A stretch of DNA of 47,969 nt. Source: Promethearchaeota archaeon. Lineage in GTDB: Archaea > Asgardarchaeota > Lokiarchaeia > Sigyniarchaeales > SOKP01. Where the stretch lies: the NCBI GenBank assembly GCA_011364925.1, contig RDOA01000026.1:1-47969 (forward strand). The letters run 5' to 3'. A model generated the notes under the pieces. It was given only the letters and a program-made list of their open reading frames with translations. It was not told the origin of the DNA and did not search any database. The translations under genes were made by a program, and so were the position numbers. Below are positions 9,599-41,102 of the stretch, in pieces; position 1 is the first letter of the stretch; every line of letters starts with the position of its first letter.

Positions 9599-10324
9599 TT
9601 ATTCTAAAAATTCCTCCCATTTTCTCTCTTCAATTCTCTGGGATATTAAAAAATTTTTTACTTCCCCTAACAAAATATGAGGATCAAATTCCCATGCTTC
9701 TTTTCTGTTGAAGGAAATGCATTCAATTTTATGTAGATTAAACAATGACTCTAAAATGAGCCCATAAGTGGCAACTTGTGGTAAAGATAGCATAAAGTTT
9801 CCTTCGGGTTTATAATCTATTACTTTTATGGTACTATTTTCAATTTGGATGAGATCGATATGTCCTGTAATGTAATCGTTTTTAATTTTTCTCCATATGG
9901 GAATCTCGATTGCAAGCGAATTCTTGTCTCGAATTAAAATGTTTTTTAAAATTGGTTCATGGCCAGGTTTTCTCCAAATTTCAGTGTTTTTAAAAGCTTC
10001 GAAGACATCGTTTACAAATTTAGGTAACCTTGAAGTGGAATTATGATGCCTAATTTTACCTTCTCGAATTAGTCTTTTGCTAAAACTTGAAATAAATGCA
10101 GGTTTCAATCCTCTAATTTTAAACTGTGAAACTCGTGGAAGTTCTCTCTGATTGAATAAATCGTTTGGAATTGTCCCTTGATATACATTTTTAAAATACG
10201 TTCCAAGAGTTCTGAATTCTTCTCTGTTTGGACCTGCTTGAGCTAGCTTTTCTTTATGATGAACTATATTCCAATTGAATGCGTAAGGGATATTTTGATG
10301 TATATATAATTTTTTCTTTAGCAT
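9599..10324 (-). CDS. PD-(D/E)XK superfamily nuclease
   Basis: The C-terminal half contains the PD-(D/E)XK core: G-H-I-D-L-I with D157, then V-I-D-Y-K-P-E with D170 and K172. A following helix has Q-V-A-T-Y-G, the glutamine-tyrosine pattern of the RecB/Cas4-like branch. The protein (241 aa) is therefore probably a metal-dependent DNA nuclease. There are no iron-sulphur cysteines of the Cas4 type, no CRISPR array and no helicase partner nearby, so a Cas4 or AddB role is not supported. The N-terminal 120 residues are basic (many R and K) and may bind DNA. It stands alone, with the tRNA-Arg gene upstream on the same strand. Confidence 0.75.
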   Translation of the reverse strand: MLKKKLYIHQNIPYAFNWNIVHHKEKLAQAGPNREEFRTLGTYFKNVYQGTIPNDLFNQRELPRVSQFKIRGLKPAFISSFSKRLIREGKIRHHNSTSRLPKFVNDVFEAFKNTEIWRKPGHEPILKNILIRDKNSLAIEIPIWRKIKNDYITGHIDLIQIENSTIKVIDYKPEGNFMLSLPQVATYGLILESLFNLHKIECISFNRKEAWEFDPHILLGEVKNFLISQRIEERKWEEFLE

Positions 10325-10522
10325 AAAATTGAGCGTTCAGAGGAATGATATGTGATATTCATTAAGATAATTAATCTATATAATGATTCAATTTTAAAAA
10401 ATAAATAGTATTAATGTTTTATTAATTTCTGAAGTCTATTTTCTAAGAAGGACTAAAATATAATTAAACCATGTAAATCGTAAAGTCAAAATGTTTTTAA
10501 TGTTGAAGCGGACCCGGCAGGA

Positions 10523-10553
10523 TATTCGTTAGAATTACATGTTAATTCAAAAT
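10523..10553 (-). other. tRNA-Arg intron in the T-loop (31 nt, between positions 59 and 60)
   Basis: A strict bulge-helix-bulge can be drawn. The outer helix is the T-stem GCAGG/CCTGC. The central four base pairs are TTCG/CGAA, the two three-base bulges are AAA and TAT, and the inner hairpin is GAATTA/TAATTC. Cutting after the second base of each bulge yields the perfect seven-base loop TTCGAAT. Confidence 0.85.
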
Positions 10554-10594
10554 TTCGAACCTGCGACTTTCGGATTAGAAGTCCGACGCCCTAT

Positions 10595-10623
10595 TTACAC
10601 CGTTTTTACTGGAGTAAAAACAA
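10595..10623 (-). other. tRNA-Arg intron in the D-loop (29 nt, after G19)
   Basis: The outer helix is CCTA/TAGG. The central helix is GCAT/GTGT with two wobble pairs, and the bulges are GGT and AAA. The inner stem is nine base pairs (TGTTTTTAC/GTAAAAACG) with loop TCCA. Cutting each bulge after its second base joins CATGG to ATAGG, the usual archaeal tRNA-Arg D-loop. Confidence 0.82.
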
Positions 10624-10780
10624 CCATGCTAGGCTACGGATCCTTTGTTCAAAAATAATATGTGTAAATCTTGATTATGATTTTTATTAATTAACAAAGA
10701 ATTAAAATTTTATCATAATTTAAAGCGAAATAAACTACTTTAAGATATGTGATTATAGAATAGACATAGAAGTAATCGCT

Positions 10781-11929
10781 TTATTTAATAGGTTTGATGT
10801 TCGCATCTATCACAATCATATCAGCTTTGGGAGAATACGCTTTAACAATTTTAGATGTAATTACTTCCTCTACCTTCCATCCGATTCTATTCAGATGATG
10901 ACTTAAATCTTCTATACCTTTTTCAACTGAATTTGGTTTTTCACAGAATTGATAGAAATGCAGTATCCCTCCAGTACTTTTCGTAAGGAAACAAGCCACA
11001 TCTAGGTAATCAATTGAATGTTCCGGTAAATTCATGATTATTCTGTCTACTTGATTTTTTAGGGAAATTCCTAATTTATTAGACGATTTTACAAGTTCCT
11101 TGACATCTATATTATAAGCGAATATTTTACCAATCAATTTATTCAATTTTATATTTTCATTAAGATATTGATAAGCCACTGGATTAACATCAAATGAATA
11201 AATTTTCACATCGTTACTTCTCGCGATTTGAATAGAGATTGGCCCAACGCCAGCAAACATATCTACAATTACTTCATTTTTAGCCAAGTTTATGAAACTT
11301 AACCTTTTTCGCTCAAAAATTAATCTCGGAGAGAAGTAAGTATTTTTGACATCTAATTTAAAAGTGCAATTATTTTCGTTGTGAATAGTTTCAGATTTAT
11401 CTTTACCTGAAATTAATCGCAATTCTCTTAGCCGATACTGTCCTTTTATTTCGCTTGTTTTCTCGTATACAATCTCAACTATTTTATTCACCTTTATAAT
11501 CGCTTTCGCTACTTTTTTCTTAAAAAGTAAGGCTTTGTCCGCATTTAATGAGTTGAATCGATCAAATTCTATAATTGCGATTTTACCAATAATATCATAC
11601 GATTTTGGTATTAATTCTATAATATGTTCTGGTAATTCGCCAATTAATGCTTCCTCTATAGTACGCGATTTATAGTTTGGATCAAACTCCGCCTTAGAGT
11701 TAACAATTTCAAAGGATAGATCATTTAAATCGCTTTTCATTAATTTATTTAAACCATTCTTGCTTTTTATTAAGGGAAAAAGCACATAAGCTTCGCTATG
11801 GATAACTTTTTTCCTTTTATCAATTAATGTTTCATCGGAATAGCTCTTTTTAATTAATTCTAATAATGAATTAGCGGTTTCCTTTCTAACTTTTAAAAAC
11901 TTAGTTAGTTCTTTGTTTTCGTTACTCAT
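10781..11929 (-). CDS. trm5: tRNA (guanine-37-N1)-methyltransferase Trm5
   Basis: Trm5 transfers a methyl group from S-adenosylmethionine to N1 of G37, next to the anticodon, protecting the reading frame. The SAM-binding motif D-M-F-A-G-V-G-P-I-S-I is near residue 225, and the catalytic N-L-P-E-H-S motif is near residue 296. The upstream E-L-P-E-H-I segment with D-I-I-G-K-I-A-I-I-E (residues 110-145) is the Trm5 D1/D2 region. The size (382 aa) fits a full-length enzyme. Its start overlaps the end of the DUF371 gene by eight bases, so the two are translationally coupled in the tRNA-modification run AK6-TGT-DUF371-Trm5. Confidence 0.93.
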   Translation of the reverse strand: MSNENKELTKFLKVRKETANSLLELIKKSYSDETLIDKRKKVIHSEAYVLFPLIKSKNGLNKLMKSDLNDLSFEIVNSKAEFDPNYKSRTIEEALIGELPEHIIELIPKSYDIIGKIAIIEFDRFNSLNADKALLFKKKVAKAIIKVNKIVEIVYEKTSEIKGQYRLRELRLISGKDKSETIHNENNCTFKLDVKNTYFSPRLIFERKRLSFINLAKNEVIVDMFAGVGPISIQIARSNDVKIYSFDVNPVAYQYLNENIKLNKLIGKIFAYNIDVKELVKSSNKLGISLKNQVDRIIMNLPEHSIDYLDVACFLTKSTGGILHFYQFCEKPNSVEKGIEDLSHHLNRIGWKVEEVITSKIVKAYSPKADMIVIDANIKPIK

Positions 11930-14750: not shown

Positions 14751-14854
14751 TGGGAAAGGGGGGCTTCGAACCCCCGACCTCACGGTTATCAGCCGTGCGC
14801 TATACCAGGCTAAGCCACTGAAGAGATTTTTCGATTATAAAAATCCTCTCTCCC
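14751..14854 (-). tRNA. tRNA-Ile (anticodon GAU) with intron after the acceptor stem
   Basis: On the minus strand the acceptor strands GGGAGAG and CTTTCCC pair with one G-U, discriminator A, no CCA. The anticodon stem ACGGC/GCCGT-type arm closes loop CTGATAA, giving anticodon GAT (plus-strand 14788-14790). The T-arm is GGGGG-TTCGAAG-CCCCC. Thirty extra bases separate acceptor position 7 from position 8. Without them the gene reads as a standard 74-nt tRNA-Ile beginning GGGAGAG-TGGCTTAGCC. There is no intron at 37/38. Confidence 0.93.
14818..14847 (-). other. tRNA-Ile intron between positions 7 and 8 (30 nt)
   Basis: A relaxed bulge-helix-bulge fits. The central helix is GGAG/CTTC, the bulges are AGA and AGT, and the inner stem is GGATTTTT/AAAAATCT. 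Cutting after the second bulge base joins GGGAGAG to TGGCTTAGCC. There is no outer helix, as expected this close to the 5' end. Confidence 0.75.
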
Positions 14855-40992: not shown

Positions 40993-41102
40993 TGCTTCTG
41001 CCGGGATTTGAACCCGGGTCGCGAGGGTGAGAGCCTCACATGCATAATCCTTCTTTCTAATATAAGAAAAGAGTAAGTTTGACCGAACTACACTACAGAA
41101 GC
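40993..41102 (-). tRNA. tRNA-Glu (anticodon CUC) with D-arm intron
   Basis: On the minus strand the acceptor GCTTCTG/CAGAAGC pairs perfectly, with discriminator A and no CCA. The T-arm is CCGGG-TTCAAAT-CCCGG. The anticodon stem TGAGG/CCTCG closes loop CTCTCAC, giving anticodon CTC. The D-arm GTGTAGTTCGGTCAA is typical of archaeal tRNA-Glu but is interrupted by about 35 bases before its 3' strand. Without these the tRNA is 75 nt. No intron occurs at 37/38. Confidence 0.92.
41044..41078 (-). other. tRNA-Glu intron near positions 21/22 (about 35 nt)
   Basis: The best relaxed bulge-helix-bulge has central helix GGTC/GATT (two wobble pairs), bulges AAA and ATG, and inner pairing CTT/AAG then TTTCT/AGAAA. 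It joins GTCAA to GCATG, making D-stem GTGT/GCAT. Boundaries could shift by two bases. Confidence 0.6.

Follow-up and report, generated by a model that had tools for sequence, protein, structure and literature searches.

Archaeal tRNA genes interrupted by several introns have their older example in the Thermoproteales (PMC8450103, PMC4090602), where, as far as the original studies are cited there (Sugahara 2008; Fujishima 2010), non-canonical bulge-helix-bulge (BHB) introns number up to three per gene and similar introns are common to different isodecoders. Within the Asgard archaea, Atabeyarchaeia and Freyarchaeia have introns in 92-95% of their tRNA genes, over half with several (Valentin-Alvarado et al., PMC11291895). 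The broad substrate range of the splicing endonuclease EndA is conferred by the Crenarchaea-specific loop (CSL) and its lysine (PMC6379350, PMC12397907), and the texts of these two papers do not mention Asgard archaea. In the open literature that we searched, we found no report on tRNA introns in Lokiarchaeia, an absence that proves little, as subscription papers were outside the scope. Here, we describe a tRNA-Arg(UCU) gene with one intron in the D-loop and one in the T-loop, located in a window (the whole stretch of DNA analysed, 47,969 nt) from a Lokiarchaeia MAG of 112 contigs. As a kind, a multi-intron tRNA gene is already known; what is new is the lineage, a clean comparative series, an apparently recent intron transfer and the occurrence of a CSL-type EndA across Asgard genomes.

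The gene is encoded on the minus strand at positions 10643-10509, is 135 nt long including introns and has no encoded CCA. Exon 1 (10643-10624, GGATCCGTAGCCTAGCATGG) extends from the 5′ strand of the acceptor stem to G19 and is followed by a 29 nt intron at position 19/20 of the D-loop (10623-10595, TTGTTTTTACTCCAGTAAAAACGGTGTAA) with a strict hBHBh' structure. Exon 2 (10594-10554, ATAGGGCGTCGGACTTCTAATCCGAAAGTCGCAGGTTCGAA) runs from A20 to A59, contains the anticodon TCT and is uninterrupted at the canonical 37/38 site. The second intron (10553-10523, 31 nt, ATTTTGAATTAACATGTAATTCTAACGAATA) is located at position 59/60 of the T-loop, also in the hBHBh' form, and exon 3 (10522-10509, TCCTGCCGGGTCCG) covers T60 to the discriminator base G73. 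Once both inserts are taken out, a 75-nt cloverleaf with the anticodon TCT remains, which is called tRNA-Arg(tct) by ARAGORN. Cuts 3′ of the second base in each bulge generate the junctions GCATGG-ATAGG and TTCGAA-TCCTGC and thereby the D-loop AGCATGGATA and the T-loop TTCGAAT. A split or permuted tRNA was considered and rejected, as the three exons lie in order and collinear at this one locus.

In the D-loop intron, an outer helix CCTA/TAGG (4/4 pairs) and an inner helix of nine contiguous pairs flank the bulges GG|T and AA|A and a central helix GCAT/GTGT, in which two of the four pairs are G-U. In the T-loop intron, the T-stem GCAGG/CCTGC itself is the outer helix (4/4 pairs), the central helix TTCG/CGAA is fully paired (4/4) and the bulges are AA|A and TA|T; its inner stem is weaker, particularly beside the bulge, and consists of two pairs, an internal loop and then GAATTA/TAATTC. 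Both inserts thus have the make-up of archaeal BHB introns, with a 4-bp central helix, two opposite 3-nt bulges and flanking helices, and the isotype, splice sites, intron lengths, BHB geometry, outer T-stem helix and restored loops that the first-pass annotation had proposed were all recovered by our BHB search and ARAGORN. The search was run de novo and unbiased: approximately 1000 BHB candidates were spliced singly, the top ones also in pairs, and the resulting cloverleafs were scored. The best solution was the pair at 19/20 and 59/60; relaxing the D register by one base (12-nt D-loop) gave an equal cloverleaf score and a worse BHB. In a control with fixed exons and dinucleotide-shuffled introns (5000 trials, scored by central plus contiguous inner pairing), the observed pairing was reached or exceeded by none of the 5000 shuffles for the D-loop intron and by 0.5% for the T-loop intron. 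In the raw window, the unspliced gene was missed by ARAGORN and also by Rfam at the gathering threshold, the best sub-threshold Rfam tRNA score being 13.6 bits against a cut-off of 29, as would be anticipated with two interruptions in one tRNA. The case illustrates how ordinary finders come to report too few tRNAs in Asgard archaea.

On either side, the gene is bordered by a TRM5/TYW2-family methyltransferase gene (10781-11929, minus strand) and a 241-aa ORF with no Pfam hit (9599-10324, minus strand), which is kept beside the tRNA in relatives. The order DUF371, TRM5/TYW2-like methyltransferase, tRNA-Arg(UCU) and 241-aa ORF can be traced in many relatives, and by the neighbouring methyltransferase the nearest named ones are Candidatus Lokiarchaeota MAGs. 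In several relatives (L040, L046, L047, L053, L059, L060), the tRNA gene looks inverted between the same neighbours.

Nine same-genus genomes, that is, this one and eight relatives, have both introns at identical sites, and these nine species form one clade in a tree built on the adjacent 241-aa protein (support 97/96). Because the MAFFT alignment shifted the D-intron gap by a few bases in relatives without introns, pairs were counted in the splice-site register. Central helix pairing was held in 46 of the 48 cells for the D-loop intron (12 distinct sequences) and in 34/36 for the T-loop intron (9 distinct sequences), the latter count being limited by the near-invariant T-loop, which already constrains the exon side of that helix. 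Two-sided changes were seen at the third central pair of the D-loop intron (A-U in the nine-species clade, C-G in other genera), at the fourth of the T-loop intron (G-C to A-U in G028) and at the first inner pairs of both; the outlying T-loop introns of G034 and G075 form three of the four central pairs. Orthologues in other genera also have a T-loop intron at 59/60, with a different sequence and a largely similar central helix. Both introns are real, typical of intron-rich archaeal tRNAs and kept in sister species, and this comparison with relatives is stronger evidence than the shuffle controls.

Altogether, 47 genomes, including this one, were parsed for intron content; three D sites were set by hand, as the 22/23 position given by the parser for G036, G041 and G045 was changed to 19/20, yielding a GCCT/GGGT-type central helix like that of G028. 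The gene was intron-free in 24 of the 47 genomes, contained D- and T-loop introns together in 12 (11 of them at 19/20 and 59/60), a D-loop intron alone, at one of several positions, in 10 and a T-loop intron alone in one. The syntenic intronless orthologues are uninterrupted genes at the same locus. With none, one or two introns in the 47 genomes, this is one orthologous gene with fluid intron content, and presence and absence are fluid across the family for tRNA-Arg(UCU) and its isoacceptor alike. G015, counted among the genomes with only a D-loop intron, has its copy on a mosaic contig (C50, near 75738; L045, L161) with the junction inside the tRNA gene, one side being 96.5% identical to G037, from another genus, and the other 99.3% to G023; either the assembly is chimeric here or recombination took place at the tRNA.

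A decaying pseudogene, with D- and T-loops broken by random insertions, would also be missed by the standard tRNA finders, but we consider this highly improbable and largely refuted: the exons are intact, removing the two BHB motifs restores a standard tRNA, and nine species of a single clade retain the insertions, with the splice sites conserved and the helix changes paired. The first-pass annotation had named another complete tRNA-Arg(UCU) as the observation that would make this copy a pseudogene, and none was found in the genome by BLAST, by the Rfam tRNA model or by a pattern for the anticodon arm that tolerated three mismatches at most, although AGA, the codon read by this tRNA, is the commonest Arg codon (72 of 145 in nine ORFs of the window). 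One anticodon-arm candidate, at G000:C35:25456, was rejected as there was no T-arm or D-arm nearby. Such searches could miss a second gene that is strongly diverged or interrupted several times, and the assembly is a MAG in 112 contigs. As no second copy was found and AGA is frequent, the gene is very probably needed.

The weaker inner stem of the T-loop intron and its modest shuffle result on a single sequence might suggest that only one insertion is an intron and that the mature RNA retains the other as a larger loop. There is very little chance of this, given that the tRNA T-loop is nearly invariant, that orthologues from other genera place introns of different sequence but mostly the same central helix at 59/60, that both tRNA-Lys genes of this genome carry strict BHB introns there and that the tRNA-Arg(UCG) gene of a sister species (G002) shares this intron, again at 59/60. 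Patchy presence among relatives and that identical copy in another tRNA gene would also be in line with self-splicing or mobile-element remnants of the group I or II type, independent of EndA. However, 29 and 31 nt leave no room for a ribozyme core, Rfam gave no match to an intron family and each junction shows explicit BHB geometry, which makes this the least probable of the alternatives. It is thus almost certain that the gene is a functional, apparently single-copy tRNA-Arg(UCU) whose precursor contains two archaeal BHB introns, removed via EndA and RtcB and inherited from the ancestor of the clade.

The genome encodes both a splicing endonuclease and a ligase, with two EndA-family proteins and one RtcB gene (L099). 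The alpha subunit (200 aa, L066, G000:C29) is closest to the EndA of A. pernix (3P1Z; E-value 3.2e-34, match over most of the length), possesses the catalytic residues Y141, H149 and K180 and aligns K58-P59-R60 with K44-P45-R46 in the CSL of A. pernix. The 205-aa protein (L067) resembles alpha and has Asp where the catalytic His should be, and lacking this residue it is likely the structural beta subunit. Judged from these alignments, the pair would correspond to the (alpha-beta)2 EndA of broad specificity, with a catalytic subunit, a triad-lacking one and the loop lysine. It thus resembles the A. pernix enzyme (3P1Z; PMC6379350, PMC12397907) in its two subunits, the Tyr/His/Lys triad and the K-P-R motif of the CSL, but differs in belonging to an Asgard archaeon, outside the group after which the loop is named, and in that its quaternary structure and activity are predicted from sequence. 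Two EndA-family genes were present in 51 of the 58 genomes searched across the phylum and one in the other 7, several of which are incomplete assemblies. The CSL lysine was found in all 30 Asgard alpha subunits examined (L066, L194-L222), in all but one as K-P-R/K; as aligned, the "Crenarchaea-specific" loop occurs outside Crenarchaeota, in Asgard archaea. The relation of this loop in Asgard EndA to the eukaryotic TSEN loop is a point of interest for structural comparison.

We propose that the precursor folds with one BHB at each splice junction and that the predicted (alpha-beta)2 EndA, with its CSL-bearing catalytic subunit, would cut after the second bulge base at 19/20 and 59/60. RtcB would then join the exons, and the 29- and 31-nt introns would probably be circularised; cutting and joining by these enzymes are attributed through family membership, and we infer that cleavage and ligation take place, that intron circles form and that the mature tRNA is functional. 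With D-loop and T-loop both interrupted, both introns would have to be removed before the elbow between these loops forms. Both would already have been present in the ancestor of the nine-species clade and have been kept by descent.

The two-intron tRNA-Arg(UCU) is not exceptional within its own genome. In a census based on a T-arm pattern and Rfam hits, which is incomplete and under-counts tRNAs with an interrupted T-arm, the parser resolved 24 tRNA genes, of which 22 looked reliable (the tally excludes the parses for tRNA-Asp, L074, and for L028, which could not be trusted); seven had no intron and 15 had at least one. Canonical 37/38 introns were restricted to three of these 15 (Gly-GCC, Ser-GGA and Ser-TGA). 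Both tRNA-Lys genes (G000:C16 and C101; L017, L027) have their strict BHB introns, 30 nt long, at the site of the Arg T-loop intron, and tRNA-Arg(UCG) likewise carries two introns, although its exact sites are uncertain, as are those in tRNA-Glu(CTC) and tRNA-Phe, the Arg(UCG) parse having a 14-nt variable loop. Non-canonical introns occur in each of the three tRNAs that we detected in the window: besides tRNA-Arg(UCU), these are tRNA-Ile(GAU) (14757-14819, extending upstream to ~14855, minus strand), with a 30-nt intron near 7/8 and an Rfam match to its 3′ part only, and tRNA-Glu(CUC) (40993-41102, minus strand), with an intron in the D-arm region and ARAGORN bounds (40994-41066) that omit the 5′ part. 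The gene had initially been described as unusual for its two non-canonical introns and empty 37/38 site, but it is less so than that description suggests, as most resolved tRNAs of this genome have introns, mainly non-canonical ones; likewise, Thermoproteales remain the older example of multi-intron tRNAs, but other Asgard archaea have them too (PMC11291895). With Atabeyarchaeia and Freyarchaeia, this genome shares the Asgard affiliation, the non-canonical positions and the presence of several introns per tRNA, while it differs in belonging to Lokiarchaeia, in a lower share of intron-bearing genes (15/22 parsed, from the incomplete census) and in allowing a comparison within a genus.

In G002, the T-loop intron of tRNA-Arg(UCU) has an identical counterpart (31/31 nt) in the tRNA-Arg(UCG) gene (G002:C49:5167-5272; L164, L160). 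On both flanks, the DNA around the latter can be aligned with the Arg(UCG) loci of G013, G003 and G017, none of which has an insert in the T-loop. Past the intron, the acceptor strand is complementary to the 5′ strand of Arg(UCG) itself (GGGCCTA/TAGGCCC), so that the arrangement is not explained by a simple join of the two Arg genes during assembly. The variable loop next to the intron reads ATGTC, as in Arg(UCU), and ATTTC in the Arg(UCG) genes of G003 and G013, which hints at gene conversion, weakly so since G017 shares ATGTC. The pattern suggests a recent event between isoacceptor genes, either intron transfer or gene conversion. We consider it likely that BHB introns in Lokiarchaeia are now mobile between isoacceptor genes, that in G002, once it had separated from its closest relatives, an unchanged copy passed from UCU to UCG, either by transposition or by gene conversion across the T-arm common to both genes, and that a CSL-type EndA tolerates such arrivals, making the gain nearly neutral. 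In Thermoproteales, introns have been proposed to be gained in this way (Fujishima 2010, as cited in PMC4090602); compared with what is relayed there, the lineage is unrelated, and the donor and recipient are pinned to a single sister species whose relatives have uninterrupted orthologues.

Multi-intron non-canonical tRNA genes are thus documented in Lokiarchaeia, with one syntenic orthologous gene containing zero, one or two introns in related species and one apparent recent donor-to-recipient transfer as a comparative system. The intron load is linked to an EndA carrying a loop of the Crenarchaea type, in the phylum of archaea closest to eukaryotes. Across the genus, tRNA-Arg(UCG) (L177-L185, read by eye) has either no insert or inserts in the D-arm, anticodon arm or variable loop, depending on the species.
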